Source: Olivibacter jilunii (lineage in GTDB: Bacteria; Bacteroidota; Bacteroidia; Sphingobacteriales; Sphingobacteriaceae). Taken from it: a stretch of 64,000 bases of DNA. Of this stretch, positions 7,963 to 47,750 are shown one piece after another. The notes below the pieces were generated by a model, which did not search any database, was not told the origin of the DNA, and saw only the letters and a program-made list of their open reading frames with translations. The position numbers were made by a program, and so were the translations under genes. The DNA is taken from assembly GCF_900607235.1 (NCBI RefSeq), contig NZ_LR027848.1, forward strand, positions 981,241 through 1,045,240, read 5' to 3'. Each line of letters opens with the position of its first letter. Position 1 is the stretch's first letter.

Positions 7963-7985
7963 TTTCGTGTCAAAATAACATTTAT
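7963..7985 (-). promoter_or_regulatory. Putative AraR operator upstream of araB (weak copy)
   Basis: On the minus strand: ATAAATGT, 7-nt spacer TATTTTG, then ACACGAAA. One half-site is perfect and the other keeps only its inner ACA and final A. Spacing and T-rich spacer agree with the stronger copies near 8945, 13700, 34124 and 47595. Confidence 0.45.
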
Positions 7986-8031
7986 TTTTTTAGATAAAAA
8001 AATATTATCGAAAAAATGTGCATGAAAAAAA

Positions 8032-8724
8032 TTAAGGGTTAGGTATAAAGTTTAAGAATGAACTTATTTTATCTTTATAGGTTTCCTTATTGAGCTTGTA
8101 ATAAAATGCACCCTTTTTCGAATTCTCTTTATCCTTATCTTTTTGACGAACTAATAAACCTGTTGACAAAAGTTTTCTATTAAAGTTTCTTTTATCCAAT
8201 ACAATATCATAAACACCCTCATAAAGAGTCAGTATTTGGGGGATAGTAAATTTTTCGGGCAGTAACTCGAAGAGTATTGGATGCAGGGCGGCTTTATAGC
8301 GTAATTTTTTCTTCGCATGTTCTACCATGCTATTATGATCAAAGATAAGTTTCGGTATTTCTTTTAGTGGCATCCACTCGGCACGATACTCCTTGCTTAA
8401 CTGATCTTTGTATTTACGAATGTCAATAAGTGCATAATAAGCAATACTGATTGTTCTCTCAATGGGATCTCGATTGGGTTCGCCAAAGACCTCCATTTGC
8501 TCCATATATACATTTTCTAAACCCGTCAATTGCTTCAAGACGCGTGCAGCGGCTTCCTCAGGTGTTTCATTCGGCTCCACGAATCCGCCCATTAAGCTCC
8601 ATTTATTTTTTTCAGGCTCAAAGCCTCTTTGTATAAGCAGCAATTTAAGACTTTCCCCATCAAATCCAAAGATGATACAGTCTACGGCAACAAGTAGGCG
8701 TGTTTGTTTTGAGTATTTCGTCAT
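8032..8724 (-). CDS. araR: Nudix-domain transcriptional regulator of arabinose use (AraR type)
   Basis: A 230-residue protein with an N-terminal Nudix-like domain (about 1-140) and a C-terminal winged helix (about 145-230, FTIPQILTLYEGVYDIVLDK). This is the architecture of NrtR and of the Bacteroidota AraR, which I recall being characterised in Bacteroides thetaiotaomicron (BT0354) as an arabinose-responsive repressor. The Nudix box is broken: in GGFVEPNETPEEAAARVLKQL the REUXEE metal-binding glutamates are replaced (RVLKQL), so catalysis is unlikely and the fold probably only senses the sugar. It lies next to araB and divergent from the first susC. A set of identical dyads upstream of the arabinose genes is its probable operator. 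Family assignment is confident; effector identity is by homology and context. Confidence 0.88.
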   Translation of the reverse strand: MTKYSKQTRLLVAVDCIIFGFDGESLKLLLIQRGFEPEKNKWSLMGGFVEPNETPEEAAARVLKQLTGLENVYMEQMEVFGEPNRDPIERTISIAYYALIDIRKYKDQLSKEYRAEWMPLKEIPKLIFDHNSMVEHAKKKLRYKAALHPILFELLPEKFTIPQILTLYEGVYDIVLDKRNFNRKLLSTGLLVRQKDKDKENSKKGAFYYKLNKETYKDKISSFLNFIPNP

Positions 8725-8838
8725 AATTTAAAGGTAATTAGATCGGTAAGATAATATTCATTTAAGATAATTATCGGCATTCTGTAAAAATTAGTTCCAC
8801 GTTTGCATTACATGCGATAAAGATAGTCAAATTCCAGT

Positions 8839-8861
8839 TGCTTTATCAAATTGGTAAAGCA
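8839..8861. promoter_or_regulatory. 23-bp palindrome in the araR-susC gap
   Basis: TGCTTTATCAAATTGGTAAAGCA is self-complementary at 10 of 11 base pairs around position 8850. It differs from the AraR-like dyads and may bind another regulator of araR or the divergent susC. I saw no second copy in the window. Confidence 0.35.
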
Positions 8862-8908
8862 GACAATGTTACAAAGATAATCATTTGTTTAAACGATTAA
8901 GTATTCAA

Positions 8909-8931
8909 AGAAGTGTTTTTTTGACACTTTT
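8909..8931 (+). promoter_or_regulatory. Putative AraR operator, secondary copy upstream of the first susC
   Basis: AGAAGTGT, spacer TTTTTTG, ACACTTTT. Its centre is 25 bp from that of the perfect dyad at 8927-8963, giving a tandem arrangement. Each half matches the consensus at 6 of 8 positions. Confidence 0.5.
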
Positions 8932-8963
8932 TATTAAATGTTCCATTGACATTTAATAAAAAG
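8927..8963 (+). promoter_or_regulatory. Putative AraR operator, near-perfect copy upstream of the first susC
   Basis: A 15-bp perfect inverted repeat around a 7-nt spacer: CTTTTTATTAAATGT, TCCATTG, ACATTTAATAAAAAG. It is the longest dyad of the set and overlaps the -33 element of the promoter at 8946-8975, a good position for a repressor. Confidence 0.7.
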
Positions 8964-8975
8964 CTTCTATATTCG
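8946..8975 (+). promoter_or_regulatory. Promoter of the first susC/susD operon
   Basis: TTG (8946-8948), 19 nt, then TATATTCG (8968-8975), one mismatch to TAnnTTTG. Transcription would start near 8982, leaving a short leader of about 40 nt before the ATG at 9020. Confidence 0.55.
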
Positions 8976-9019: not shown

Positions 9020-12000
9020 ATGCAACGAATCAATTTAAAATTCAATTGGCGTAGCGCTTTGATAGTATACATGGCGCTTCTGCTAAGCCATTTGGGGTGG
9101 AGCCAACAGAGCACGCAAATTAAAGGGAAGGTAACTGATAAAAAAGGAGAGCCTATACCCGGTATCAGCGTAAGTCTACCAGGCTCGAAAATCGGAACTA
9201 CAAGTGATCTCAATGGTTTTTATCAAGTTCAAGTACCGGCCTTAATTGGCAAGCTGGTATTTACCAATGTTGGGTATATAAAAAAAGAAGTCCCTTTAGT
9301 TTCCGGACAATTCATCTACGACATAACCTTGGAAGAGGATTTACTGGGATTGGAAGAAGTGGTGGTGGTGGGATACGGAACGCAGCGAAAAGCAGACATT
9401 ACTGGCTCTGTTGCTATTGTGGATGTTGCCGAATCCAAGAAATACTTAACAAATGATATTTCCCAGCTATTACAGGGACGGAGTCCGGGTATTACCGTAA
9501 ATAGCGATGGACAGCCCGGTGCCAGCCCAAATGTAAGAATTCGAGGCGTAAGCACTTTTGGTAATGCACAGCCGCTATATGTGGTAGACGGTGTTCCTGT
9601 GGGCACGTCCATACGTGATTTCAGCCCTAATGATATCGAATCGATGCAGGTCTTAAAGGACGCTTCAGCAGGTGCTATATACGGTTCTATGGCAGCCAAC
9701 GGAGTGGTGATAATTACAACAAAACAGGGTAAGAAAAATACGCCGTTAAATATTGAGTATAATGGATCCTATGGGGTGGATAAAGTTTGGCAACGTATAC
9801 CGGTTTTAAAGCGCACCGATTATCAGTTGATTGCCAATGAAGTAAGAACCAATGCCGGGTTACCGCTCATTCCGGGAAATGATCCATCTTCACCACTATT
9901 TATTGATAACGTGGATACGGATTGGCAAAAGGAAGGATTAAAAAACGGATCAAGGCAAAACCATAATCTCAATTTTATGGGTGGTGGGGAAAATACGACC
10001 TATAACCTTTCTTTCGACTACCTTGGTAATGACGGTACTTTTGTTGGCAATGGACCTAGTTATGATCGGTATACTGCACGCATCAATACAACTGCCAGAA
10101 AAGGTATTTTCAAAGTTGGCCAAACTTTTACCTATACACACTCGCACGAAAATACACTTACCTACAATAATACCATATTGACTGGCAGTCGCCCGCCATT
10201 GGTGATCGATTTGGTGGAAGCTATTCCAACACAAATGATTTATGATCCTAATAATAAGGGAGGTTTTGGCGGTACGGAGTCGAATATCCATGATGTTATA
10301 TCGCTTAATGCAATTGCCATCAATAGTTTGTTTGAGAATTATACAGACGTCGATCGCATGTTTGCAACTGCTTATGGAGAGATCGATTTAATAAACAAGA
10401 ATGGGCATAGCTTACGATATAAATTAAATTTAGGATACGACAAAACACAGGCGCGGGATTACGCTTTTCAACCTGCCTTCGATTTGGGATATTTTTTCCA
10501 TTCAAATATTTCCAGATTAGACGACGGGCAACGCACCTATACAACGGGCTTGGTAGAGAACACCTTGAATTATGAAAAAAAGTTTGGAAAACATGCGCTC
10601 ACGGCACTGATCGGGCAAACCTACCAGTATGGATCTGCATTAGTTCGTAGTGGACATTCAGAAGCCTTTACAGAGCCATATTTCCCAATTTTAGACAATG
10701 GAAGCAATAAAACGGCCTCCGGCACCATTGACGAAAATGCGCTTTCATCTTATTTAGGCCGTATTACATATAATTACGATGATAAGTACCTCCTGACTGC
10801 CAATATCCGTCGAGATGGATCTTCCCGATTTAGTCCTAGCAATAGGTTCGGTTATTTCCCCTCGATTGCTTTGGGATGGAAGTTGACCAATGAACCATTT
10901 TTTAAGGTATCGAAGGATATTGTAAGTGACTTAAAGCTGCGAGCGAGTTATGGCAAGCTGGGAAATCAAAATATTGGGGATTACTTATATATGAGCTATA
11001 TCAATCCGAATATTGTCTACAACTTTAATGGCCAAAAAGTGTTCGGCGGACTTCAAACAAGTTTAGTGTCGCCTGATATCAAATGGGAATCTAAAGTTAC
11101 CTCCAACATCGGTTTGGATGGTATTTTGCTGAATGGACTAATAGATTTTACCGTAGAATATTATCGCAATAAAACCACTGATATATTGGTTGGTGTTCCT
11201 ATTCCCGGTTCAACGGGATCGGTTAATAAGGCACCGACAGTTAATACGGGAAGTTTGCAGAATTCAGGGTTTGAGTTTATGGCAGCCTATAATAAAACCC
11301 AAGGAGATTTTAATTTTAGTATTGCCGCAAATGTAAGTACAATTAAGAATAAAGTATTGGCTTTGGGTGATAATAATGAACCTATTTATGGTGCTGGCTC
11401 CAAAACGGAAATTGGAGGCGAAGTGGGACAGCATTTTGGCTATGTGACGGAAGGTATCTTTCAATCGGTCGAAGAAGTAAATGCGCATGCTTTTCAAAGT
11501 GCAGGAACAGCACCCGGAGACCTTAAGTTTAAGGATTTAAATGGAGACCATGTGATTAATGCGGATGACCGAGCCTATCTCGGAAGTGCTATCCCGGGAT
11601 TAAATTATGGATTGAACTTCACTGCCTCTTACAAAAAAATAGATTTTACCTTATTTGCATCCGGTAGTTCGGGCTTTAAAATCAATAGCAGAATGTACCG
11701 AGACCTTATGTTAACGACAGATTATATTAATAGACATGAGGATATTTTGGAGCGTTGGACACCGACAAACACGAACACCGAAATCCCTCGTTTGGTAGCC
11801 AATGATCCCAATGGAAACGGACGTGACTCGGATAGAAAGGGCTGGCTGCAAGATGGAACGTATTTACGGATCAACACGGTATCACTGGGCTATACTTTAC
11901 CTGATAAATTGATCAAGGGCGTTCAACGCTTGCGGGTCTATGCAACGGCGCAAAACTTATATACTTTCCAATCTTACAAAGGATACAATCCTGATTTCAC

Positions 12001-12085
12001 TGCCGGGGTCTTTGAGCCCGGGTTTGATTTTGGTTCCTTTCCGAAGCCAAGAACTTTAATGTTGGGAGTACAAGTTGGGTTTTAA
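9020..12085 (+). CDS. SusC/RagA-type TonB-dependent receptor (arabinan pair)
   Basis: Outer-membrane barrel that imports oligosaccharides with its SusD lid, powered by TonB. It has a signal peptide ending near SHLGWSQ, a carboxypeptidase-regulatory-like domain (about 30-115; IKGKVTDKKGEPIPGISVSLPG), then the TonB-box/plug region starting LEEVVVVGYGTQRKADITGSV and the SusC plug signature DASAGAIYGSMAANGVVIITT. The ~800-residue barrel ends in LGVQVGF, a typical terminal Phe. At 1021 residues it is within the family range. The susD partner follows 18 bp later, and the proposed AraR operators lie directly upstream. The match to arabinan is inferred from the neighbouring GH51/GH43 genes. Confidence 0.93.
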   Translation: MQRINLKFNWRSALIVYMALLLSHLGWSQQSTQIKGKVTDKKGEPIPGISVSLPGSKIGTTSDLNGFYQVQVPALIGKLVFTNVGYIKKEVPLVSGQFIYDITLEEDLLGLEEVVVVGYGTQRKADITGSVAIVDVAESKKYLTNDISQLLQGRSPGITVNSDGQPGASPNVRIRGVSTFGNAQPLYVVDGVPVGTSIRDFSPNDIESMQVLKDASAGAIYGSMAANGVVIITTKQGKKNTPLNIEYNGSYGVDKVWQRIPVLKRTDYQLIANEVRTNAGLPLIPGNDPSSPLFIDNVDTDWQKEGLKNGSRQNHNLNFMGGGENTTYNLSFDYLGNDGTFVGNGPSYDRYTARINTTARKGIFKVGQTFTYTHSHENTLTYNNTILTGSRPPLVIDLVEAIPTQMIYDPNNKGGFGGTESNIHDVISLNAIAINSLFENYTDVDRMFATAYGEIDLINKNGHSLRYKLNLGYDKTQARDYAFQPAFDLGYFFHSNISRLDDGQRTYTTGLVENTLNYEKKFGKHALTALIGQTYQYGSALVRSGHSEAFTEPYFPILDNGSNKTASGTIDENALSSYLGRITYNYDDKYLLTANIRRDGSSRFSPSNRFGYFPSIALGWKLTNEPFFKVSKDIVSDLKLRASYGKLGNQNIGDYLYMSYINPNIVYNFNGQKVFGGLQTSLVSPDIKWESKVTSNIGLDGILLNGLIDFTVEYYRNKTTDILVGVPIPGSTGSVNKAPTVNTGSLQNSGFEFMAAYNKTQGDFNFSIAANVSTIKNKVLALGDNNEPIYGAGSKTEIGGEVGQHFGYVTEGIFQSVEEVNAHAFQSAGTAPGDLKFKDLNGDHVINADDRAYLGSAIPGLNYGLNFTASYKKIDFTLFASGSSGFKINSRMYRDLMLTTDYINRHEDILERWTPTNTNTEIPRLVANDPNGNGRDSDRKGWLQDGTYLRINTVSLGYTLPDKLIKGVQRLRVYATAQNLYTFQSYKGYNPDFTAGVFEPGFDFGSFPKPRTLMLGVQVGF

Positions 12086-12103
12086 TATATAATCAAAATA
12101 ATT

Positions 12104-13663
12104 ATGAAAAGATATATAATCGCACTGTTTTTATTCTCCATGTTGATGGTTGGATGCGATAAAAAACTAGATCTTAATAGTCAAAAACAAGAACAAGTAG
12201 AGACTTATTGGCAAACAGCAGAGCAAGCATCGGCGGGTGTTATCGCCATTTACAATAGTCTGATTCAAGACGGTACCTATATGCGGATGATGCCTGCTCT
12301 TACCGATGCAAGAGGAGATGATTTTGTAGGAGACAGCCCCTGGGGCGATTTGGTGCAAACGGGAAAGTTTACGGTTATGTCAACCTCCGGACCAGTAGAG
12401 TGGGTTTGGTCGCAATGGTATCAATTGATATACAGGGCAAATCAAGTGCTTACGTTTGTTCCCAAGATTGAGATGGATCAAGCATTGAAGGATCGTCTAT
12501 TTGGACAAGCTCATTTTTTAAGGGGTTTAGCCTATTTTACCCTAGCAAATACTTATAAGACTGTTCCCGTTATTCTTACACCTCCTGTCGATAGGCAGGA
12601 TTATTACCCGGCAACAGCCTCTGAAGAGGTTTTATGGCAACAGATTATCGACGACCTTCGTGCTGCAGTAGAGTTGTTACCGATTTCTTATAGTACGGTA
12701 TCCGGGCCTGATGCCAATCAAACCGGGAGAGTTACGAAGGGCGCTGCAGTGGGAATGCTCGGGAAAGTGTTTCTCTATCGGAAAAATTGGGCAGCAGCGG
12801 CTGAGCAATTCCGATTGCTAATAGAAGGGCCAACGCTGAATACCTATCGTTTAATGACTGATTATCGAGATAACTTCAAGCCAACTAACGAAAATAATGC
12901 CGAGTCTTTATTTGAAGTCCAATTTGCCGACCCGGAAACGGTTGGAGGAACTGTCTTCAATTACGGAGGAGAGCCGAATGCCAACTGGAAGCAAGTCTCT
13001 TCTGTTGGGCATACCTATGCCATGGACGGTTTTGGTTATTCTGACTTTTTGCCTACAAGAGGACTTTATAATGAATTTAAGGAAGAGCGGACAATAGATG
13101 GTGAGCTCGATCCCAGACTGCTATCTACCATTGCTTCCTTTGAGCCAGGTGTGTCCGAATTGGCCTATGGGGATGTTTGGAAAAATCCGAAGAGCAATAT
13201 CTATCCGCGTAAATATACCCATGATGGTATTCCAGGCTATACAAATGAAAATAACGGCGTGGAAAACTCAGGCATTAATTACCGTATTCTTCGGTATGCT
13301 GACGTATTACTCATGTATGCGGAAGCGCTGAACGAACTTGGCCAGACAGACCAAGCCTATCCTTATATACAACAAGTAAGAGATCGCGCGAAACTTCCTG
13401 ATCTGGCGAGTGTAAAGCCGAATATGACACAAGAGCAAATGCGCGATCAAATCGCACATGAACGATTTCTAGAGCTAGCTATTGAGGGAATTCGGATTAA
13501 TGACATTATCCGATGGGGCTGGTTATATGATCCGGATAAACTTGCCAAACTGAAAGAAAATGATAACGATTTTGACACCTGGCGAGCAGGAAAGGAATAC
13601 CTTCCCATTCCACAGCGAGAGTTAGATCTTAATAGAAACTTGTTGCCTAATTCGGCAAATTAA
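12104..13663 (+). CDS. SusD/RagB-type surface lipoprotein (arabinan pair)
   Basis: Glycan-binding lid of the preceding SusC receptor, anchored on the cell surface. The signal peptide ends in a lipobox (SMLMVGCDKKLDLN), and the helical SusD fold is recognisable from NQVLTFVPKIEMDQALKDRLFGQAHFLRGLAYF, LLMYAEALNELGQ and the C-terminal ERFLELAIEGIRINDIIRWG, all standard SusD/RagB landmarks. Length 519 is normal. It is cotranscribed with the susC gene (18-bp gap) and is followed, after 111 bp containing a new promoter and AraR-like operator, by the glycosidase operon. Confidence 0.93.
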   Translation: MKRYIIALFLFSMLMVGCDKKLDLNSQKQEQVETYWQTAEQASAGVIAIYNSLIQDGTYMRMMPALTDARGDDFVGDSPWGDLVQTGKFTVMSTSGPVEWVWSQWYQLIYRANQVLTFVPKIEMDQALKDRLFGQAHFLRGLAYFTLANTYKTVPVILTPPVDRQDYYPATASEEVLWQQIIDDLRAAVELLPISYSTVSGPDANQTGRVTKGAAVGMLGKVFLYRKNWAAAAEQFRLLIEGPTLNTYRLMTDYRDNFKPTNENNAESLFEVQFADPETVGGTVFNYGGEPNANWKQVSSVGHTYAMDGFGYSDFLPTRGLYNEFKEERTIDGELDPRLLSTIASFEPGVSELAYGDVWKNPKSNIYPRKYTHDGIPGYTNENNGVENSGINYRILRYADVLLMYAEALNELGQTDQAYPYIQQVRDRAKLPDLASVKPNMTQEQMRDQIAHERFLELAIEGIRINDIIRWGWLYDPDKLAKLKENDNDFDTWRAGKEYLPIPQRELDLNRNLLPNSAN

Positions 13664-13688: not shown

Positions 13689-13711
13689 TTAAATGTTTAT
13701 TTTACATTTAT
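13689..13711 (+). promoter_or_regulatory. Putative AraR operator upstream of the GH51 operon
   Basis: TTAAATGT, spacer TTATTTT, ACATTTAT; the central 7-bp arms (13690-13696 and 13704-13710) are perfect complements. It overlaps the -33 region of the promoter match at 13701-13730, just as at the first susC. Confidence 0.65.
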
Positions 13712-13730: not shown

Positions 13731-13774
13731 ACGAGCGTATAGCCAATTATTTGTTAGATACCAAAATTGATACC

Positions 13775-15319
13775 ATGAATAAAAAACCACTTATTGCCTT
13801 ACTGTCCTTGCTGATTTCCAGTACGACATTATGGGCACAAAACCTGGTGAAATTATTGCCGGGGAAAGACACCATTACCATTAATAAACATATCTATGGG
13901 CATTTTGCCGAACATTTGGGCCGTTGCATCTACGATGGCATTTATGTAGGCGAGGACAATAAAACCGTTCCACATACCAACGGTGTTCGCAATGATGTGA
14001 TAGAGGCATTAAAAAAATTAAACATACCAAACCTTCGTTGGCCGGGTGGTTGTTTTGCAGATACCTATCATTGGAAAGATGGTATCGGGCCAAAAGGAAA
14101 GCGACCAAGCATCGTAAATACTTGGTGGGGAGGAGTTACTGAGAATAACAGCTTTGGAACGCATGATTTTTTAAATATGTGTGAACTTCTTGGCACCGAA
14201 CCCTACCTAGCTGGTAATGTAGGTAGTGGGGAAGTACAAGAACTGGCCGATTGGGTACAATACGTCAATTTTGATGGAAAAAGCCCCATGTCCGATCTTC
14301 GGAGGGAAAACGGGCGAGACAAACCCTGGAAGGTTAAGTTCTGGGGAGTTGGTAACGAAGCGTGGGGATGCGGGGGCAATATGACGCCGGAGTATTATGC
14401 GGATGTATACCGTAAATACGCCACCTTTATGTCAGATTGGACCAATAGCGGCGGGCTGTTTCGTATTGCATCCGGAGCCAACAGCGATAATTATGAATGG
14501 ACCGAAACGCTTATGAAAAAGATTCCCAAATCTTTGGTCAAGGGCTTAGCATTACATCATTATGCGGTAATTGACTGGCAAAAGAAAGGTTCAGCAACCA
14601 TGTATACCGATGAACAGTATTTCAAAACGATGAAATCTGCCTGGTTCATGAATGAGCTGGTTGAGAAGCATAGTGCTATCATGGATAAATATGATCCTAA
14701 AAAAGAAATCGCGCTTGTTGTTGATGAGTGGGGTGGCTGGTACGAGGTAGAGCCCGGCACTAATCCCGGCTTTTTATATCAACAAAATACCATGAGGGAT
14801 GCGATGATAGCCGGTATGACGCTCAATATATTCAACAATCATGCAGAACGGGTGCGAATGGCTAATCTGGCGCAAACTGTGAATGTGCTACAAGCGGTTA
14901 TATTAACCGAAGGTGATAAGATGCTGGTGACTCCGACCTATCATGTTTTGGAAATGTACAAAGTGCATCAGGATGCTAGATTGGTTCCTATTGAAGTAAA
15001 TAGCCAAGAGCTTTCATTTAACGGCGAATCAATTCCAGCGGTTTCCGCTTCGGCATCCATCGCAGAGGACGGCAATACACATATATCGTTGGTAAACATC
15101 GACCCTAAAAACCAGCAAGAAATTACGATCGACTTAAGTGATAGAAAATACAAAAATCTAAACGGACGATTACTTACTTCAAAAAAACTTAGAGATTATA
15201 ATTCTTTTGAGAATCCAGGCTACATAAAACCAGAAATATTTAAAGGAGCCAAAATGAAAAATAACCAAATTTCGGTCACGCTACCGCCATTCTCTGTGGC
15301 CGTCTTAGCGTTAAATTAA
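13775..15319 (+). CDS. GH51 alpha-L-arabinofuranosidase (compact type)
   Basis: Retaining exo-enzyme releasing L-arabinose from arabinan or arabinoxylan side chains, secreted (signal peptide ending [11 protein letters not shown]). The TIM-barrel carries the acid/base glutamate in [11 protein letters not shown] (E195) and the nucleophile in [12 protein letters not shown] (E318), followed by a C-terminal beta-sandwich ending [11 protein letters not shown]. Its length (514 from the chosen start) fits the compact bacterial GH51 group. I choose the ATG at 13775; a longer frame opening at a TTG at 13751 adds only eight residues before the signal peptide. First gene of a tight five-gene operon, preceded by an AraR-like operator. 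Confidence 0.95.
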
Positions 15320-15346
15320 AGGTACAAACGAAAGATATATAACATA

Positions 15347-17317
15347 ATGATTCGACGGAAGTTACTGGGAGTATTTATTTTGAGTTGCGCACTCGGCTTA
15401 AGTGCGCAAGAAAAGAAATCGTTTACTATCGATATTTCACATCCTACAGGAAACATATCCCCCAATATGTGGGGGGTGTTTTTTGAGGATATTAATTTAG
15501 GAGCGGACGGCGGAATCTATGCTGAACTTATAAAGAATAGGTCCTTTGAATTCGCAGATCCTTTTATGGGCTGGAAGAAATTGGGTGAGAAGATCGGAGA
15601 GGGAACCTTCTTGGTATTGAATCGAAAAGACAAACCCAATAATCCACGTTTTTTACGGGTTAACACAAGCTTATCATCAGAAAAAGTTGGATTACAAAAC
15701 GAAGGTTTCCGCGGCATGGGGATTAAGCAGGGACTTCGATATGACTTTAGTGTCTTGTATAAACAAGCTGTACCTGGCATTACTTTACGTTTACAGCTGG
15801 TGGATACCTTGGGTGCTGTAATAGGGGAGAGTACGCTTCGTCCGGAAAAAACCGGGACGGATTGGCAAAAGCAGCAGATAAGCTTCCGAGCCGCTAAAAC
15901 GGAACCAAAAGCGAAACTTGTTCTCTGGTTCGAAGGGAAGGGTACGCTAGATGTAGATATGATTTCGCTTTTCCCGGAAGATACTTGGAAAAACAGACCC
16001 GGGGGCTTACGGAAAGATATGGTTCAATTATTGGCGGACATGAAACCGGGTTTTATACGATTTCCCGGTGGGTGTATCGTTGAAGGCAGAGACTTAGCTA
16101 ATCGTTTTCAATGGAAAAAGACCGTTGGGCCGATTGAGGATCGTAAGCTCATCATCAATCGATGGAATACCGAGTTTAAGCATCGCTTAACACCTGATTA
16201 TTATCAAAGCTTTGGATTAGGGTTCTTTGAATATTTTCAGTTGGCGGAGGATATCGGGGCCGAGCCATTGCCCATCTTGAACTGCGGTATGGCTTGCCAG
16301 TTCAATACGGCCGAGCTGGTTCCAATAGATGAACTGGATGAATATGTACAGGATGCATTGGATCTAATAGAATTTGCTAATGGGGATACCGGCACAAAAT
16401 GGGGAAAACTGCGTGCCGAAATGGGACATCCGCTGCCCTTCAATTTAAAAATGTTAGGAGTAGGGAATGAAAACTGGGGTCCGCAATATATAGAACGACT
16501 TGAAGTCTTCAAAAAAGCCCTTAACGAACGATATCCGAATATTAAGATTGTAGCTAGTTCAGGTACCGATCCCGAAGGCGAACGTTTTGAATTTCTTAAT
16601 AAGGAGTTAAGACGACTAAAGGTCGATTTTATTGATGAACATTATTATCGCAGTCCCGATTGGTTTTTGACCCATGCTAATCGCTATGACGCTTATGATC
16701 GCCAAGGACCAAAAATTTTTGCGGGTGAATATGCTGCCCATACTGATCGGACCGCAGGTACCGGTAACCGAAATAACTGGAAAGCGGCTATTGCCGAAGC
16801 AGCATTCCTAACCGGGGTAGAACGAAATGCAGACGTTGTCGGTATGGCTTCTTATGCACCCTTATTCGCTCATGTTGACGGATGGCAATGGACACCTGAC
16901 CTTATTTGGGTGGATAATTTGCAAGCATACGGTACACCGAACTATCAAGTGCAGAAGCTATACGCTATAAACAAAGGAACTCATGTAATCTCCGTTCGTA
17001 TGGATAACGTGATTCCTAGTGGTCAGGATGGTCTATATGCGTCCGCGGTACTAGACAGTAAAACCAACGAAGCGATCATTAAGGTGGTAAATCATAACGA
17101 TTATCCTATCAATGGTAGTTTTAATATACAAACAAAAGAAAATTTAGCAAAAGAAGTAGAACATATTGTGTTGACCGCTGGATTAGCGGAAGAGAATTCC
17201 ATTCAGCATCCCAATAAAGTCAGCCCGAAAATTGACAAGGTGACGCTTAAAGGGAAAACGATAATCTCCGACTTATCACCCTATTCTTTTCATATCTTCA
17301 AAATCAAGATTAAATAG
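15347..17317 (+). CDS. GH51 alpha-L-arabinofuranosidase (long type with N-terminal sandwich)
   Basis: A second, distinct GH51 enzyme: 656 residues with signal peptide (SCALGLSAQE), an N-terminal carbohydrate-binding-like beta-sandwich (about 75-210) inserted after the initial GVFFEDINLGADGGIYAEL motif, then the catalytic barrel. The acid/base glutamate lies in LGVGNENWGPQY (E375) and the nucleophile in FAGEYAAHTDR (E461). This architecture resembles the eukaryotic-like ASD1 group rather than the compact enzyme upstream, so the two probably attack different linkages or chain lengths. The gene follows the first GH51 after 27 bp and precedes the GH43 by only 2 bp. Confidence 0.93.
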   Translation: MIRRKLLGVFILSCALGLSAQEKKSFTIDISHPTGNISPNMWGVFFEDINLGADGGIYAELIKNRSFEFADPFMGWKKLGEKIGEGTFLVLNRKDKPNNPRFLRVNTSLSSEKVGLQNEGFRGMGIKQGLRYDFSVLYKQAVPGITLRLQLVDTLGAVIGESTLRPEKTGTDWQKQQISFRAAKTEPKAKLVLWFEGKGTLDVDMISLFPEDTWKNRPGGLRKDMVQLLADMKPGFIRFPGGCIVEGRDLANRFQWKKTVGPIEDRKLIINRWNTEFKHRLTPDYYQSFGLGFFEYFQLAEDIGAEPLPILNCGMACQFNTAELVPIDELDEYVQDALDLIEFANGDTGTKWGKLRAEMGHPLPFNLKMLGVGNENWGPQYIERLEVFKKALNERYPNIKIVASSGTDPEGERFEFLNKELRRLKVDFIDEHYYRSPDWFLTHANRYDAYDRQGPKIFAGEYAAHTDRTAGTGNRNNWKAAIAEAAFLTGVERNADVVGMASYAPLFAHVDGWQWTPDLIWVDNLQAYGTPNYQVQKLYAINKGTHVISVRMDNVIPSGQDGLYASAVLDSKTNEAIIKVVNHNDYPINGSFNIQTKENLAKEVEHIVLTAGLAEENSIQHPNKVSPKIDKVTLKGKTIISDLSPYSFHIFKIKIK

Positions 17318-17319
17318 AT

Positions 17320-18345
17320 ATGCTAAGCCGGAATCTAATTGTTGTATTTCTCGTGATTACCTGTTCTAGCTATGCACAGCAGCCGGGACAGGTAATCGTA
17401 CACGATCCGGTGTTGATTTCGGCAGACGATAAATATTATCTCTTTGCTACCGGAGATGGTATTGATGTATGGTCTTCAACCGATTTGGAAAACTGGTCTA
17501 AACAGGCACCTGTTTTTCCGGAATCACCGACCTGGGCAAAGCGGGAAGTGCCAACATTTAAAGGGCATATTTGGGCACCTGATATCCATTATTTTAACGG
17601 CTTGTACTATCTTTATTATAGTATATCTGCTTTTGGAAAAAACACCTCCTGTATTGGACTAGCGACTAATCCAACTTTAAATCCGCAAGATTCGGGGTTT
17701 AAGTGGACGGACCGTGGAAAAGTGATCCAGTCGATACCTGGGAAGACGAATTGGAACGCCATAGATCCCAATCTAGTCTTCGACGAAAGTGGGCATCCAT
17801 TTCTTGCATTTGGTTCCTTTTGGGACGGTATCAAATTGGTGAGACTAAGTAGAGACGGTATGCGAACGGAGGACGATTTGCTTACTATACCAACACTTGC
17901 CAGTAGAAAGATAAATCGCCGGGCACCTAATCCCCCAGCCATAGACAACAATCCAGTTGATGCAGGGGGCAATGCCGTTGAAGCTCCTTTTATCTTTAAA
18001 CGGGGAGGCTATTATTATCTTTTTGCCTCCATCGATTATTGTTGCAAAGGAGCGGCAAGCACTTATAAAATGATTGTGGGAAGAGCGAAAAAGGTGACAG
18101 GACCTTATTTGGACGATCAGGGGAAAGACTTGGCTTCTGCCGGTGGTAAACTCCTTTTGGCGGGCGATAGCCGATGGCATGGCGTCGGGCATAATGCCGT
18201 AATAAAGCTTGAAGAAGACGATTATCTCGTTTTTCATGGCTATGACGCTCAGGATCAGGGTAAACCTAAATTAAGAATTGAGAAATTAAAATGGGACAAC
18301 AAAGGTTGGCCTTTGTTGATTAATAATGAATTATCAAACCAATAG
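17320..18345 (+). CDS. GH43 arabinanase/arabinofuranosidase (five-bladed propeller)
   Basis: A 341-residue secreted protein (signal peptide ending SSYAQQ) made of a single GH43 propeller. The catalytic base sits in VHDPVLI (D29), the transition-state aspartate in NAIDPNLVFD, and the general acid in AVEAPFIFKRGGYYYLF. The motifs HIWAPDIHYFNGLYYLYYS and the GHNAVIK calcium/active-site histidine region match endo-1,5-alpha-L-arabinanases, which is the most likely activity; an exo-acting arabinofuranosidase in the same family cannot be excluded. It begins 2 bp after the second GH51, so translation is probably coupled. Confidence 0.88.
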   Translation: MLSRNLIVVFLVITCSSYAQQPGQVIVHDPVLISADDKYYLFATGDGIDVWSSTDLENWSKQAPVFPESPTWAKREVPTFKGHIWAPDIHYFNGLYYLYYSISAFGKNTSCIGLATNPTLNPQDSGFKWTDRGKVIQSIPGKTNWNAIDPNLVFDESGHPFLAFGSFWDGIKLVRLSRDGMRTEDDLLTIPTLASRKINRRAPNPPAIDNNPVDAGGNAVEAPFIFKRGGYYYLFASIDYCCKGAASTYKMIVGRAKKVTGPYLDDQGKDLASAGGKLLLAGDSRWHGVGHNAVIKLEEDDYLVFHGYDAQDQGKPKLRIEKLKWDNKGWPLLINNELSNQ

Positions 18346-18356
18346 ATAGTATAATC

Positions 18357-19505
18357 ATGAGCAAAATAATTTACATTGCTGCAATAGCCGCGGGTCTGTT
18401 AAACGGAGCATGCAACCAGCGTACCCAACAATCTGCTGAAACGGCGGATACGGTGAAAGTTGATACAACTTCCGGTTTTAATGCTGAAATTGATGGAAAA
18501 GAGGTAAAACTGTATACATTGATAAATGGTAAGGCAAAAGCGGCCATTACCAATTACGGGGCGCGTTTGGTAAGTTTGTTAGTCCCGAATAAAGAAAATA
18601 CACAAACAGACGTCGTATTAGGCTATGACAAGGCCGAAACTTACAAAGCAAATAAAGCAACTTTTTACGGTGCTATTGTAGGCCGGTATGGAAATCGCAT
18701 CGCAAAAGGTCAATTTACCCTCAATGGAAAAACGTATCAACTGGAAAAAAATGACGGAGAAAATTCACTGCACGGAGGGACTAATGGTGTATATGATAGG
18801 GTATGGGATGCCGAACAGATAGATGAAAAAACACTTAAATTGACTTATCACTCGACCGATGGGGAAGCGGGGTATCCTGGTAACGTTGATATGACGGTGC
18901 TTTACTCCCTAAAAGAAAACAATAGCTTGGAAATCGATTATACCGCTACGACCGATAAACCAACTGTTTTAAATTTAACGAACCATGCTTACTTCAATTT
19001 AAATGGTGAAGGAGATTCAACCATTTTAGATCATGATTTAACCCTATATGCAGACCAGATTACACCTGTAGACGAAACCCTGATTCCTACCGGTAAATTT
19101 ATGGACGTTACCGGTACGCCTTTCGATTTTAGAAAAGCGACTCCAATCGGTGCGCGTATCAATGCGGATGATGAGCAGATAGAAAGAGGGAAGGGATATG
19201 ACCATAATTTTGTGTTGAACAAAAAAGAAGGCTTACAAACAGCTGCTTTGGTATATAGCAAAAAAACAGGGATTGAGATGGAAGTGTTGACTGAAGAGCC
19301 GGGCATACAATTTTATAGCGGCAATTTTATGGAGGGAGGACAAAAGATAGGCAAAGACGGGAAAGATTACGGATATCGCTCGGCCTTTTGTCTGGAAACA
19401 CAACATTTTCCTGATTCACCCAACCAACCAGCTTTTCCTTCCACTGAGTTAAGACCGGGCGAGCCTTACAAGACCAAAACAATCTATAAATTTTCAATTA
19501 AATAA
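18357..19505 (+). CDS. galM: Aldose 1-epimerase (mutarotase), exported
   Basis: Interconverts alpha and beta anomers of released sugars. The family motifs NDGENSLHGGTNG, NLTNHAYFNLNGEG (catalytic His), KGYDHNFVLN and the C-terminal LETQHFPDSPNQPAF with RPGEPY are all present; the glutamate in TEEPGIQFYSGN is the usual base. Unlike cytosolic GalM it starts with a signal segment and a probable lipobox (LLNGACNQR), so it likely works in the periplasm or on the outer membrane next to the arabinosidases. Arabinose is the expected substrate from context. It lies 12 bp after the GH43 and 1 bp before the GH97. Confidence 0.92.
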   Translation: MSKIIYIAAIAAGLLNGACNQRTQQSAETADTVKVDTTSGFNAEIDGKEVKLYTLINGKAKAAITNYGARLVSLLVPNKENTQTDVVLGYDKAETYKANKATFYGAIVGRYGNRIAKGQFTLNGKTYQLEKNDGENSLHGGTNGVYDRVWDAEQIDEKTLKLTYHSTDGEAGYPGNVDMTVLYSLKENNSLEIDYTATTDKPTVLNLTNHAYFNLNGEGDSTILDHDLTLYADQITPVDETLIPTGKFMDVTGTPFDFRKATPIGARINADDEQIERGKGYDHNFVLNKKEGLQTAALVYSKKTGIEMEVLTEEPGIQFYSGNFMEGGQKIGKDGKDYGYRSAFCLETQHFPDSPNQPAFPSTELRPGEPYKTKTIYKFSIK

Positions 19506-19506
19506 G

Positions 19507-33620: not shown

Positions 33621-33801
33621 GTTCATATTTGATGATACATTGTTAAAATCTGGTTAATTTCGGATAAATGTCTTATGTAGATTTTTGTGGAAAGCTAAGC
33701 GGATGGCTAGTGGCTAATCAATTGTAACGTATTCCATTTTTTTCCGAGAAAAATATCCGGGGGTAAACCCGAAAACTAAAAATTTTGTTTTATGTGTGTT
33801 T

Positions 33802-34110: not shown

Positions 34111-34137
34111 ATATAAATGTTTAAATGACATTTATAT
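34111..34137 (+). promoter_or_regulatory. Putative AraR operator upstream of the second susC
   Basis: ATATAAATGT (34111-34120), spacer TTAAATG, ACATTTATAT (34128-34137): perfect 10-bp arms around a 7-nt spacer. Confidence 0.7.
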
Positions 34138-37200: not shown

Positions 37201-37442
37201 ATTTCGTACGCTTGAAAAATGTGATGCTGGGGTATAATTTACCGCAGTCGTTAGTGTCGAAGTGGGGCCTCTCTGCATTAAGAATCTATTTCCGAGGAGA
37301 TAATCTACTCACCTTTGGCAGTGCAAAAGGCCGTGGTACGGATCCCGAGAACTATGGTAATGGTTTAGTTGGTGTAGTGGATGCTAGTTCAGGTGTTCCT
37401 GCATTAAGGAGTTATTCTTTAGGTTTAAACGTGTCTTTTTAA
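34239..37442 (+). CDS. SusC/RagA-type TonB-dependent receptor (second pair)
   Basis: Outer-membrane importer of 1067 residues. Signal peptide ending VMRVQAQEQ, carboxypeptidase-regulatory-like domain (ITGHVKDSRGLPLPDVSIVQDG), then LDEVMVTAYGTSKKSSFTGSA and the SusC plug signature DAAATSLYGSRAANGVIMITTKRG, followed by the barrel ending LGLNVSF. It pairs with the susD gene 23 bp downstream. The proposed AraR operator 100 bp upstream is one of the best in the window, so this second transporter probably handles another arabinose-containing oligosaccharide. It shares only family-level similarity with the receptor at 9020, so it is not a recent duplicate. Confidence 0.93.
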   Translation: MQTNYQTSKRRLSWTFLMLLLFSVMRVQAQEQITGHVKDSRGLPLPDVSIVQDGEGIGTKTDESGKFLLKLPKLGVKLIFRSIGYKNYELVVTNSNNLEVVMEDDIAGLDEVMVTAYGTSKKSSFTGSATVIDAKQLENVNTSNVAQGLQGLSAGVQVTNTSGRPGANPTINIRGIGSLTAEMAPLYVVDGVPSDVNLNAYSPSDIESITVMKDAAATSLYGSRAANGVIMITTKRGASGKARVNARAAWTTSDFAVKFPERVSPAKQWELAWEGLYNDARDFDGKSDEEAREYASNRVPSVFWNTTPLYDANGNLIRNYRSGWNMDYPVGLDGKIKPEAQRLWDFDLFDEAFNYRLKQDYGVDFSGAMGENNTYYASFSYLNDKGVHISDGFKRYTGRVALNSKINDWFSMSNSIMFMNSADVNGGFDARVFRVMPTEYSAYLWDYETNSYAISPFTGKPQLDEGVANGRAWWPRWSAYGALTEAKNSQTDNLQTVSALTFRLLDGLSLKTTYSFQLIDNFYSMWKSPERENQLLPSEGYVQRDNYRSYSHTVNNVLTYDKTFNNLHHINVLAGQEIYSYTTSGSGVTRSGLALPYFKEISLASNDPTAWSTFGRYGLASFFGKAEYDFDNRFYISSSIRTDGSSRFHPDHRWGQFYSLGASWRISEESFMENTQDWLQNLKLKASYGEVGNDRVGNYYAYQALYGPTSYVGTVGVRLNQLENENIKWETNIQTNIGFEFSVFNKLSGSVEYFTRKSQDLLLNRPLAPSLGMDAILTNIGDVQNKGWEVDLNYSAVRTKDFDWNVSLNATSYKNIITSLPSKEEQYSQGVAIFKWKEGGSRYDIYAPSFAGVNPDNGHNQWWKYEFDGNGNIIGQEKTENYNEVNVNEQRINQGSVLPDVFGAFTNNFRYKSLDLSFMLYYSFGGKLYDYNYSESNVLRENFAAYDNLDRRWQKPGDVTDIAKIYTYRTFDAFANARYSDQYIFTNNFVRLKNVMLGYNLPQSLVSKWGLSALRIYFRGDNLLTFGSAKGRGTDPENYGNGLVGVVDASSGVPALRSYSLGLNVSF

Positions 37443-37465
37443 ATGAGGCGTAAAAATATAACAAA

Positions 37466-38929
37466 ATGAAATTTATAAATAAAACTTTAATAGGTCTATT
37501 GACAACGATGCTATTGCTAAGCACTGGTTGCGAGAAATTCTTGACAGAAGAGCCAACTTCTGATTTGACCAATACAACGGTTCTGCAAGATGTTACCGGT
37601 TTGAATTTACTGTTACAAGGTACTTATCGCATGATGCGAGATGGAAACAATGGAAGCAGTGATAATCCAGCGACATCTAGTCCTTTAGGAATTAAATTGT
37701 TATCAACCGTTTCAGGTTTGGATATGATGGTCAATCAAGAGCAGGTAGGTAATAATTGGTACTTCTATACTTATAGTAACCAACGTTACGATGCGACTAG
37801 CGGTGTCACATCTACGATGTGGACTACCATGTATAGGGTTATCAATAATACCAATATTATCTTAGAGAATGTGGACCAAGCAATAGGAGGGCAGTCAGAG
37901 AAGAACGCAATTAAGGGACAGGCCTTGGCTTTACGAGCCCGTTGTTATTTTAATTTGGTTCGTATGTATCAACACACATACATCATTGCTAAGGATAAGC
38001 CAGGTGTCCCTCTACAATTAACTTCCGATTTAAATCCAAAAGCGAGAGCAACCGTAGAAGAAGTCTACAATCAAATCATTGCTGATCTAACTAACGCTGA
38101 AACTTTATTAATAGACTTTAATCGCCCTAGTATTAATTATTACAATGTTGACGTTGTCAATTTTCTTTTGGCAGAAGTGTATCTTACCATCGAAGACTGG
38201 GTTAATGCACAAAAATATGCCAATAGAATCCGTACAAACTATGAATTGATGACGACGGGTGAATATAAAGCAGGCTTTTCTTCACCTAATAAAGAGTGGG
38301 TTTTGGGTTATGAACAAGGTTCGCAAGATTACTGGTGGTATGATTCGCCTGCCTGTTGGTTTGATTTTGGACAAAATAATGCGCCTTGGCAGGCCGAACA
38401 AATTTTACCATCCAATTATTTTGTTGAGGTAATAATGAAAGATGATCCACGAGCCCTTTTTATTGAAAATCCGTTGTACCCCGGGAAATATGCTGCCACG
38501 AAATTCCGGGAATTGCGGGACGAGCCTCCATATGGCCACCTTTACGATTTTCGGGCAGCAGAAATGTATTTGGTAGAAGCAGAAGCAGCAGCAAGACAAA
38601 ATGATTTACAAACTGCTTTACAAGTGTTAAATACCCTACAGCAAGAACGAGGCGCAGCGGTAACGAGCACCTCGAGTCAAGAAGCGTTAATCGATGCCAT
38701 TTTACTGGAACGGCGAAAGGAAATGTGGGGGGAAGGTCTTGAATGGTTCGATATTCTGCGCTTGCAATTATCGGTGGAACGGACAAGTGCACAAGGGCAT
38801 TATCAAAATGTCAGCGTTCCAAAAAACTCCAATAAACTGATTCTCATGATACCTGAAAAAGAAGTGATTAACAACAGATCATTGGAGCAGAATCCAAACC
38901 CAAGCCAAGTCCCGGTGTTTGTTCCGTAG
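37466..38929 (+). CDS. SusD/RagB-type surface lipoprotein (second pair)
   Basis: Glycan-binding partner of the preceding SusC. The signal peptide ends in a lipobox (MLLLSTGCEKFLTEEP), and the SusD landmarks are present: NNTNIILENVDQAIGG ... KGQALALRARCYFNLVRMYQ in the first helical repeats, AAEMYLVEAEAAARQN, and the C-terminal ILLERRKEMWGEGLEWFDILRL. Length 487 is normal. It ends the transcript, with a clear terminator 27 bp after the stop. The next gene, a peptide transporter, has its own promoter. Confidence 0.93.
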   Translation: MKFINKTLIGLLTTMLLLSTGCEKFLTEEPTSDLTNTTVLQDVTGLNLLLQGTYRMMRDGNNGSSDNPATSSPLGIKLLSTVSGLDMMVNQEQVGNNWYFYTYSNQRYDATSGVTSTMWTTMYRVINNTNIILENVDQAIGGQSEKNAIKGQALALRARCYFNLVRMYQHTYIIAKDKPGVPLQLTSDLNPKARATVEEVYNQIIADLTNAETLLIDFNRPSINYYNVDVVNFLLAEVYLTIEDWVNAQKYANRIRTNYELMTTGEYKAGFSSPNKEWVLGYEQGSQDYWWYDSPACWFDFGQNNAPWQAEQILPSNYFVEVIMKDDPRALFIENPLYPGKYAATKFRELRDEPPYGHLYDFRAAEMYLVEAEAAARQNDLQTALQVLNTLQQERGAAVTSTSSQEALIDAILLERRKEMWGEGLEWFDILRLQLSVERTSAQGHYQNVSVPKNSNKLILMIPEKEVINNRSLEQNPNPSQVPVFVP

Positions 38930-43038: not shown

Positions 43039-43039
43039 T

Positions 43040-43062: not shown

Positions 43063-43075
43063 ATTTTTGTTTCTA

Positions 43076-43083: not shown

Positions 43084-43099
43084 CGGCCAAATTTTGAAT

Positions 43100-45460: not shown

Positions 45461-45462
45461 CA

Positions 45463-45494
45463 TAAAGAGGAGTGTCCGAGAACACTCCTCTTTA
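45463..45494. terminator. Bidirectional terminator between the TonB receptor and the HEIGH lipoprotein
   Basis: TAAAGAGGAGTGT (45463-45475) and its perfect complement (45482-45494) around a 6-nt loop, between two convergent genes. Confidence 0.75.
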
Positions 45495-45498
45495 CAGT

Positions 45499-47361
45499 TT
45501 ATTCGATGTTAATTTTGAATACAAATGTAGCTTGCGCCGTTTTTCCTGGCTCATATTCGTAAACTAAGGCCTGTTTCACCGTATATTGGTTGCCTGGAGT
45601 CGAATGACCGGGATATTGTCCTATTGAAAAAGTAAAATTTGTGGCATTAAACTCCGAGAAAACTTTTGCGTCATTTCCCCAATTAATAACATTGCCGTTT
45701 GCATCGAACCAGTGTCCATAGCCATTGGCGGTCGTCGTCGCATTTAAATTTCCATTGCTCTCCACTGCATAGAATTTAACGCTACTTCCCATTAATTGTG
45801 TGATCTTGCCAGGTTGTAGTACAAAAGCTTGGGCAAGAGGAGTTACGTCTATCGAGACGGTCTTACCCGAGTAATTCACAGTATCTCTCGGAAAGCTTAC
45901 ATTATAGGTAAATGTAGTGTCCTTTGGTGTGGCATCCTCTTCTAGATCGATATGATTGATGAGTGTAGTGTTTGTAAACTTAACTTTATACGGCCACTGT
46001 TCATCATTGTTTTCGTCTTCATCCCAAGGATGTACTGCATAGGTACTAGGTGCTCCTGTTACAACAAACCATAGCTTTGCACAGTTTTCGGGAATGGTAA
46101 AATTCACTGTCTTATTAATACCCTGCTCCATGTTCCCATATACGCGGGCTCCATTAGCTAATAAAGCTACGTAACCGTACCGCCAACCTGCGCGCGAAGC
46201 GTCCACCGTATTATACCCTGTCGCATTAGGTAGACCCATGAACGCCGTTGATATTTGTGTTCCGGCAGCGGGTACCTTCAGTGGTATGATATTATAACCG
46301 GATGTGCCTGGGCAATGGTCATAAGCAACTTGAAAACTGCCATCGGCAAGTTCATTAAAATTGAAGCTATGAGCTCCAATGTAATTTTTTCCGTTTTCCC
46401 GCAAAGCATCTAAGTCCCATGTGGCAAATTTTGCTGCTGCGTCATATAATTCATCGTTTAATTGCGCATTGGAAATACCGGTTATCCGCATATAAGCTTG
46501 TATCGGGTCTTCCGGCTGTTGTGCTTCACGCCAGATTCTCCCAATGATGTCAATGCCATGCTTATTTGCCCAATAGTAATGGATGAAATAACTTGCATAA
46601 CGTTGCCATTCATGATGAATATGCCGATGATAGTTTTGCGTGTAAACGGTGAAATTGTGTGAAGAGAACGCTTCCAACGGATAGCTTTGATAGGCTTGCC
46701 ATTGCGCGGTCTGTTCCCAAAAACCGTTTCCTCCATTGCCACCAAAACCATATCGGAAACCCGAACCACCGCCTAAATCGCAATGAACCTGATATTGAAA
46801 ACTATGCCCTATTTCATGAGCGATGGTGGAACCAACGGGTTGTGAGGTGCCCGGACTTATCCAGAGCGCGCCGATTACGTCATCGTAACCGGAACCTGTT
46901 GCTAACCATTCGTCTTGGTAATAAAGGAAAATCATCATCTTATATTTGTCGAGATTCGATTTACCCTTACCACGCTCAGCAAATTTTAATACATTGATAT
47001 TTAAATCATAAAAAGATTCAGCTTTAGTTAGCAAATCATCGATATTGACCCGATATTTAGAGGGAATATCGGTTGAATTTGGATCGTTATCTCCATATTT
47101 TGCTCCCCAAAAGACAATGAAGTGTTCTGATTGCCTGCTACGAGGATAACACCAGGTGCTCGTCGTATCATTGAAGTCCATATGTTGGAATTCTTGCGGA
47201 ATATAAATTGCTAAACTATCGACCTCCTCTCCGGGAACCGGATGAAAAGGATTTTTCTTACATGAAAGAACAGTGGCGAGCATAAGAAGGCAAATGAAAA
47301 ATGGAACTAGCATAGCTAATCGAAAGTGCCCCACCTTCTCTGAAATGTTGATTTTTTTCAT
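45499..47361 (-). CDS. HEIGH metallopeptidase-like lipoprotein (DUF6055/DUF4859 type)
   Basis: A 620-residue lipoprotein (lipobox ATVLSCKKNPF). The N-terminal half (about 60-300) contains the zincin motif STIAHEIGHSFQYQ with FWEQTAQWQAYQ downstream as the probable third-ligand region, typical of the DUF6055 family. The C-terminal ~160 residues (FTYNVSFPRDTVNYSGKTVSIDV ... WFDANGNVINWGNDAKVF) look like the DUF4859 beta-domain. Proteins with this pair occur in Bacteroidota glycan-use loci and may act on glycoproteins; substrate unknown. The gene is divergent from the large GH43, and the 562-bp gap with two AraR-like dyads could serve both. Confidence 0.75.
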   Translation of the reverse strand: MKKINISEKVGHFRLAMLVPFFICLLMLATVLSCKKNPFHPVPGEEVDSLAIYIPQEFQHMDFNDTTSTWCYPRSRQSEHFIVFWGAKYGDNDPNSTDIPSKYRVNIDDLLTKAESFYDLNINVLKFAERGKGKSNLDKYKMMIFLYYQDEWLATGSGYDDVIGALWISPGTSQPVGSTIAHEIGHSFQYQVHCDLGGGSGFRYGFGGNGGNGFWEQTAQWQAYQSYPLEAFSSHNFTVYTQNYHRHIHHEWQRYASYFIHYYWANKHGIDIIGRIWREAQQPEDPIQAYMRITGISNAQLNDELYDAAAKFATWDLDALRENGKNYIGAHSFNFNELADGSFQVAYDHCPGTSGYNIIPLKVPAAGTQISTAFMGLPNATGYNTVDASRAGWRYGYVALLANGARVYGNMEQGINKTVNFTIPENCAKLWFVVTGAPSTYAVHPWDEDENNDEQWPYKVKFTNTTLINHIDLEEDATPKDTTFTYNVSFPRDTVNYSGKTVSIDVTPLAQAFVLQPGKITQLMGSSVKFYAVESNGNLNATTTANGYGHWFDANGNVINWGNDAKVFSEFNATNFTFSIGQYPGHSTPGNQYTVKQALVYEYEPGKTAQATFVFKINIE

Positions 47362-47583
47362 AAATAATAATAAAACTTACGTTAAACTTTGATTTTAATA
47401 CTTTGGCCAATGTTGATTCTTCCATCCTTGTAGCTTGTGAAGGAAGAAGGATAAAAAGGGGTCATGAACTGTTGTGCATTGCTCATTAATTTAGTGTTAC
47501 ATAATAATAATCACTACTGTTTCGGATTCTGTAGTGCTTGCCTTAGTTTGAACTTAATTTATAATTGGGTATGAGCTCAGTTT

Positions 47584-47606
47584 ATAAATGTTTTGTTGAC
47601 ATTTAT
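47584..47606 (+). promoter_or_regulatory. Putative AraR operator A upstream of the large GH43
   Basis: ATAAATGT, spacer TTTGTTG, ACATTTAT: perfect 8-bp arms. Confidence 0.65.
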
Positions 47607-47727
47607 TTGCGTTGTACGAAATTAATGACTTGCTGGCAGTTAAAACTAAAAGTATTTTAACCAATAGTAACCATTTATTTGCCAGCTATCTATTTTCGTT
47701 TCTATCGAACGTTGGTAGAAAAATAAA

Positions 47728-47750
47728 ATAACTGTTTTAAAGACATTTAT
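47728..47750 (+). promoter_or_regulatory. Putative AraR operator B upstream of the large GH43
   Basis: ATAACTGT, spacer TTTAAAG, ACATTTAT: one mismatch in the left half, perfect right half. It lies about 60 bp upstream of the -7 match at 47809. Confidence 0.55.

Follow-up and report, generated by a model that had tools for sequence, protein, structure and literature searches.

Which protein recognizes the inverted repeat that recurs among the arabinose genes of Olivibacter jilunii? We examined this question in a 64,000-nucleotide stretch of its genome (contig NZ_LR027848.1, positions 981,241 to 1,045,240; hereafter the window), where dyads of the form WTAARTGT-N7-ACAYTTAW accompany araR, a gene coding for a 230-residue protein with a Nudix domain and an NrtR/AraR-type winged helix (8032..8724, minus strand; assigned by Pfam, a PDB match and a tree). 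Our answer is that the dyads are very probably operators of this local AraR, a Nudix-type repressor of the NrtR family, and we put the probability of this reading, which is drawn from sequence comparisons, at about 0.92. An earlier note on the same DNA had named the Nudix regulator as the candidate binder, and this proposal is now backed by the tree, by the arabinose contacts of the protein, by the operator geometry of BtAraR from Bacteroides thetaiotaomicron, by an excess of dyads in genomes with araR and by a peak at the 7-nt spacing in related loci.

Dyads in the window

When the window was scanned for WTAARTGT-N7-ACAYTTAW with up to three mismatches, exact dyads were found at 8934, 13689, 34113 and 47584, dyads with one mismatch at 30734 and 47728, and dyads with two mismatches at 7963, 8909 and 33664. 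The last of these is a ninth site, absent from the list of the earlier note, whose eight dyads were all recovered with two coordinates corrected (8927 to 8934 and 34111 to 34113). A dyad thus stands at each of the eight named sites, although the consensus said to be shared by them is present in its strict form at only four. The constant spacer of 7 nt holds at all nine dyads, and the perfect arms of 15, 10 and 8 bp, read by eye, are right for 8934, 34113 and 47584. The TGT-N7-ACA core with its spacing is present in 9/9 dyads, and the base preceding TGT is A in 11 of the 16 arms of the named sites.

The scan gave 16 matches in total compared with 7.39 ± 2.76 expected, and none of 100 shuffles reached 16. 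All nine dyads are intergenic, intergenic DNA making up 10% of the window, and the remaining seven matches have three mismatches each and lie inside genes or, at 37439, span a gene end. With a matrix built from the eight named sites, so that eight of the nine scored sites were training sites, the nine dyads scored 15.8-24.3 and no other window position reached 12. When the 19 intergenic segments of the window were simulated with a first-order Markov model, the mean number of sites scoring at least 15.5 was 0.032 and the maximum was 2 in 500 runs, compared with nine observed.

The predicted operator at 7963..7985 (minus strand) lies upstream of araB and its araB-araD-araA-symporter run, and sites resembling it, with CGTGT arms, occur close to araR in many relatives. 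Two predicted operators without assigned strand, 8909..8931 and 8934..8956, form a tandem pair that separates araR and susC-1, with centres 25 bp apart; the second carries the 15-bp arms and a spacer ending in TTG, and TATATTCG starts 19 nt past this TTG. The position of the pair suggests that araR controls itself. On the plus strand, predicted operators were found upstream of a GH51-GH51-GH43-epimerase-GH97 run (13689..13711, where TATCTTAG starts 19 nt past the spacer), upstream of a DUF5695 gene (30734..30756, kept in three sister species, L230-L232) and upstream of susC-2/susD-2 (34113..34135, with the 10-bp arms), and the weaker, operator-like site at 33664..33686 lies about 550 bp upstream of susC-2. 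The last two predicted operators, 47584..47606 with the 8-bp arms and 47728..47750, again without assigned strand, share the gap between a DUF6055 gene (minus strand) and a large GH43 gene (plus strand). Neither the pattern scan nor the matrix scan of the window found a dyad upstream of the DUF885, peptidase and amino-acid/peptide transporter genes or of the TonB receptors at 40563-45460, in agreement with the absence reported earlier for peptidase, peptide-transporter and iron-receptor genes.

Dyads in the genome and in relatives

The strict dyad has four copies in 6,704,054 bases, each inside the window, and the reversed control pattern has none. The check for random placement proposed in the earlier note therefore comes out clearly for strict dyads, which are confined to the window, while weak matches give a mixed picture that is weighed below. 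When TGT could be preceded by any base and one mismatch was allowed, the genome gave 32 matches, compared with 15 for the control. Seven one-mismatch sites lie outside the window, and four of these stand near genes of sugar use or susC genes. First, a site in L128 (6918-11991) lies 21 bp upstream of a GH127 beta-L-arabinofuranosidase gene, which is followed by a GH51-type gene. Second, a site in L129 (5889-11681; score 21.2) lies 41 bp before a Gfo/Idh-GH43-BNR_4-GH43 run with a GH88 gene on the other side. Third, a site stands at the start of a susC with GH28 and GH88 genes among its neighbours, and the fourth lies about 125 bp upstream of another susC. The earlier note expected the regulon to be defined from one window; its sites in the window stand, but the GH127/GH51 pair, on another contig, has what appears to be a conserved operator as well.

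We then compared 151 genomes of the family, divided by a best araR match with an E value below or above about 1e-60. The 94 genomes with a close match hold 69 strict sites, and 65 sites in 93 genomes when the window genome is left out (control, 8), whereas the 57 genomes without a close match hold six (control, 4). The strict dyad is present in 37/93 araR-bearing and 6/57 araR-less genomes (Fisher p 8.5e-5, a value that ignores relatedness and genome size, with the control counts as the sole guard). At 80 named araR loci, with genes called by a simple longest-ORF (open reading frame) script, intergenic TGT-Nk-ACA occurs 159 times at k=7 and 24-49 times at each of the other spacings in the range 0-20, so that the 159 include chance sites. 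These k=7 sites come from 65/80 loci. The genes downstream of them are araR (48), araB (42), susC (17), GH51 (12), epimerase (12) and others in smaller numbers, a divergent site being counted twice, and 52 sites lie ahead of a gene without a homologue in the window and nine ahead of no gene. The bases before TGT in the 318 arms are G (111), T (107), A (70) and C (30). Among 30 BtAraR-like loci from the whole class, 38 sites were found at k=7 and 5-17 at other spacings, and three further families have strict sites ahead of araR (L199, L200, L202, L204, L207 and L214). L196, which belongs to another family than the closest BtAraR matches, has the site AAAAGTGTTACTTTTACACCCGA no more than 600 bp past its araR match, and this site differs from the BtAraR crystal operator at two outer bases of 23. 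As a side observation, a contig labelled Beijerinckiaceae (L063) encodes an AraR that shares 72% identity with the window AraR, and this is probably a mis-binned contig of Bacteroidota.

These comparisons bear on two other explanations. One is that a reader focused on promoters singled out AT-rich palindromes that arose by chance, or RNA elements that form hairpins; the motif was derived from the window itself, so that statistics within the window are biased, and weak genome matches are mostly background. However, the other genomes, which provide evidence independent of the window, show one sharp spacing. In addition, arms are kept while the spacer changes, both in the GH127 site of L167 and in the site upstream of araR, where two of three sister genomes (L020 and L021) keep the arms and the TTG with the rest of the spacer changed; the third (L019) has other sites, and the tandem pair with 25 bp between centres is seen again in L020. 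We therefore consider this explanation extremely improbable. The other is that the dyads are Crp-like catabolite-control sites. According to PMC3878776, the Bacteroides Crp-like motif wwwTATGTTnTAnAACATAwww also contains TGT...ACA and precedes ara operons, but its gap between TGT and ACA is 6 nt compared with 7 nt in the window, and around araR the spacing of 6 is the rarest (24) and that of 7 forms the peak (159), which leaves this explanation with hardly any credit.

The AraR protein and its paralogue

The product of 8032-8724 matches the Pfam families NUDIX (5.1e-16), NrtR_WHD (1.3e-18) and AraR_C (1.1e-06), and among PDB entries it matches BtAraR (5bs6, E 1.7e-64) far better than any other protein. 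The nearest named AraR, from Olivibacter domesticus, is 93% identical. The Nudix signature REUXEEXGU reads RVLKQLTGL in the window AraR, with three glutamates lost, and AraR proteins have been described as having a degenerate signature with two or three glutamates replaced (PMC4666351). The arabinose contacts R34, R86 and H131 of BtAraR correspond to R33, R85 and H130, which are invariant across 16 aligned orthologues. In a tree of 67 loci and BtAraR (10/30 family, 12/80 named, 15/30 paralogue and 30 class loci, with XylR (BT0791) left out), the window AraR groups with BtAraR, and a branch with 100/100 support parts all AraR rows and BtAraR from a second Nudix-winged-helix protein.

This paralogue is encoded in the same genome (contig C2, 960090-960779, minus strand; L001/L137) and was found in 53/61 family genomes searched. 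We scanned 30 of the 53 matches, taking from each locus a single site, the one closest to the gene. In 25/30 loci a divergent pfkA homologue is found upstream, on the other strand, and in 28/30 the paralogue is preceded by a TGT-N7-ACA dyad. The 28 sites have GTGT in both arms in 25 cases, TGTA-N5-TACA in 26 and TAA before NTGT in none, and their matrix scores range from -2 to 10.3, none reaching 13. Among the 159 sites of the araR loci, 88 reach a score of 13 and 104 have TAA in at least one arm.

It is conceivable that the paralogue, rather than AraR, binds the dyads of the window. Its recognition helix has the same start, DKRNF, as that of AraR, the TGT-N7-ACA core precedes its gene, and TGTA-N5-TACA, which is typical of its sites, occurs somewhere in 41/80 AraR loci. 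The low scores and the lack of TAA at its 28 sites speak against it, as does the lack of a clear excess of strict dyads in the araR-less genomes described above despite its presence in most genomes searched, and we judge binding of the window dyads by the paralogue highly improbable. A comparison of patterns over whole loci (AraR-like core in 0/30 paralogue and 11/80 AraR loci; TGTA-N5-TACA in 26/30 and 41/80) was not informative, as the loci are of unequal length.

A tentative proposal, which we think rather unlikely, is that the two paralogous Nudix repressors would share TGT-N7-ACA and be separated by flanks, TAA(N)TGT for AraR and GTGTA-N5-TACAC for the paralogue, that residue 183 would set the preference for G before TGT, and that the paralogue would be an undescribed controller of entry into glycolysis, with possible cross-talk to the arabinose regulon. 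Residue 183 is R in 30/30 paralogues and in BtAraR and its nearest relatives (L190-L194), and it is S, T, N or F at the 67/80 named AraR loci whose helix could be located. This distribution is in keeping with a change of specificity. L204, which has arginine together with A before TGT, is a counterexample, and the simple rule that arginine 183 goes with G before TGT fails there. No report of an NrtR-phosphofructokinase link in Bacteroidetes was found in literature searches, from which subscription journals were mostly beyond reach. Two such paralogous repressors, whose operators are related yet distinct, would be useful natural material for studies on the divergence of DNA specificity.

Proposed mechanism

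The BtAraR structures show the apo dimer bound to GTGT-N7-ACAC, its wings being rotated away from the DNA by arabinose (PMC4666351). Since the dyad shares the BtAraR operator geometry, with half-site centres 10 bp apart, the same mechanism is likely for the window. The two recognition helices of the arabinose-free AraR dimer would each sit on one TGT/ACA half-site, with the half-site centres about one helical turn apart on one face of the DNA. L-Arabinose, as the effector, would bind in the Nudix pocket, upon which the winged-helix domains would turn and the DNA would be released. The genes switched on in this way would be araBDA with the symporter, the GH51, GH43, GH97 and GH127 genes, the two SusCD importers, the DUF5695 gene and araR itself.

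TTG is the upstream (-33) element of Bacteroidetes promoters. Several operators seem to overlie such an element, namely the coding-strand TTG that ends the spacer, and AraR binding would therefore block transcription. That the spacer usually ends in TTG, as previously claimed, is overstated for the window, where this is so on the plus strand at three of eight sites (8909, 8934 and 47584) and, in the direction of araB, at 7963 as well, but the bias is real in relatives. There, TTG ends the spacer on the coding strand at 28/85 oriented sites and on the mirror strand at 1/85, counted over the 85 of the 159 sites with a single downstream gene (65 divergent sites and nine without a gene start were excluded). 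We read this TTG as a -33 element, which bound AraR would cover.

We also looked for a downstream promoter element. TAnnTT is most frequent 19 nt past the spacer, in 12/214 oriented segments against a mean of 3.7 (gaps from 13 up; divergent regions counted both ways), and the mirror control gave 8 there; the 23 segments with it at a gap of 5 are trivial, as this is the dyad's own arm. The longer form TAnnTT(T/G/C)G shows no peak. Within the window, TAnnTT lies 19 nt past the spacer at 8934 and 13689 and not at the other six named sites.

Several points weigh against AraR as the reader of these dyads. First, the evidence for a -7 box at a constant distance is only suggestive, with a weak signal that differs little from its mirror control (12 and 8). 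Second, looser matches in the genome are mostly background, with 79 at up to two mismatches compared with 55 for the reversed control, and the three remaining one-mismatch sites outside the window lie 69 bp before a sigma-factor gene, over an open reading frame start and within a gene. Third, 15/80 named araR loci have no intergenic TGT-N7-ACA, and in the coding DNA of these loci some other spacings are rarer than k=7 (285 sites at k=7, 146-364 elsewhere). Of the five loci closest to BtAraR, four (L191-L194) have no site near araR; the Bacteroides AraR operators lie before araM (PMC4666351). Fourth, most loci of two proposed target genes lack a site of score 13 within 500 bp upstream. Such a site was found in 9/32 DUF5695 loci (L229-L258, L224 and L227, without L228, which is weak, and six repeat entries for genes already in the set) and in 8/23 GH127 loci, the latter in five genera and taken from 18 genomes picked partly for holding strict dyads. 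Finally, there are differences in the protein. Among the DNA contacts K179, R180, N181, K184, K204 and R205, described as six absolutely conserved base contacts (PMC4666351), four are identical and two are changed conservatively (K184 to R and R205 to K), and R183 of BtAraR is N in the window AraR. Identity to BtAraR is barely different between the window AraR (47%) and the paralogue (45%), and the Pfam AraR_C score is higher for the paralogue (58.9 bits) than for the window AraR (29.2 bits). Because identity and the AraR_C score would not decide it, the orthology of AraR rests on the tree and the gene context.

Genes of the window and proposed regulon members

Next to araR, an ara run spans 2017..7861 on the minus strand and comprises, by Pfam as for the other genes below, araB (6170-7861), an araD-type class II aldolase gene (5457-6164), araA (3781-5280) and a sodium/solute symporter gene (2017-3714). 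On the plus strand follow the susC-1/susD-1 pair (9020..13663), genes for two GH51-type arabinofuranosidases, a GH43 protein, an aldose epimerase and a GH97 protein (13751..21456), the DUF5695 gene (30792..33560), the susC-2/susD-2 pair (34239..38929) and the large GH43 gene, whose product carries F5/8 type C and laminin-G-like domains (47924..51373). The DUF6055/DUF4859 gene (45499..47361, minus strand) is divergent from this GH43 gene. No regulator besides AraR was detected among the 32 window open reading frames scanned with Pfam (774-1508 gave no match).

DUF5695 is proposed as a regulon member from its operator and from its co-occurrence with araR: it is found in 34/151 family genomes, all 34 of which have araR (Fisher p 8e-9, relatedness not corrected), two of them (G055 and G149) holding copies with stops. 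Its operator is kept in 4/5 genomes of this genus drawn. An arabinose-linked enzyme is a possible role for DUF5695. The literature, of which subscription journals were mostly beyond reach, gave no description of DUF5695 tied to arabinose, and the single match found concerned fungal velvet regulators. The DUF6055 gene may be co-regulated with the GH43 gene through the shared region of 47584/47728. The proposed regulon would tie the uncharacterised DUF5695, and possibly DUF6055, to the use of arabinose or arabinan.

Comparison with known systems

The closest known system is BtAraR (BT0354; PDB 5bs6, 5dd4, 5ddg and 5deq), which like the window AraR is a Nudix-winged-helix protein encoded beside araB/D/A (PMC4666351). 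Its crystal operator, AAAAGTGTTACTTTTACACCCAT (PMC4666351, Table 2), is GTGT-N7-ACAC, with the same TGT-N7-ACA half-sites as in the window, and its targets likewise include GH51, GH43, GH97 and SusCD genes. Tandem operators are found in both; the 21-bp BtAraR motifs lie 3 bp apart before araM, whereas the window pair, with centres 25 bp apart, lies between araR and susC. The BtAraR operator has G before TGT, which is also the commonest base across the 80 loci, whereas A prevails in the window, and residues 183, 184 and 205 are changed between the two proteins. In addition, three B. thetaiotaomicron loci are under dual control with a hybrid two-component system (HTCS) (PMC4666351), whereas the Pfam-scanned window genes include no second regulator, and DUF5695 and GH127 are members proposed here that distinguish this regulon from that of BtAraR.

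Other systems are more distant. XylR (BT0791), of a Bacteroidetes branch of the NrtR family, is a sugar regulator of the same family (PMC4666351), but the gene context in the window is that of arabinose. NrtR of Shewanella oneidensis (3gz5) also combines Nudix and winged-helix domains, but it is a far weaker match (E 8.6e-23 compared with 1.7e-64) and is known to act on NAD genes. AraR of Bacillus subtilis (GntR/LacI) shares only the name and the response to arabinose and belongs to an unrelated protein family (PMC4666351). The Halomonas AraR proteins are of the LysR and GntR families and irrelevant here (PMC5507952).

The BtAraR authors traced the switch in Bacteroides and Prevotella (PMC4666351). 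Our search of the literature beyond these genera, with subscription journals mostly beyond reach, gave no description of this lineage or of some proposed members. It is well supported that the arabinose-AraR operator system of the window is of the kind already known from Bacteroides, extended to more families. A sugar switch solved in gut Bacteroides is thereby extended to Sphingobacteriaceae, Chitinophagaceae and other families, and its spacing-exact operator can be used for scanning any genome.

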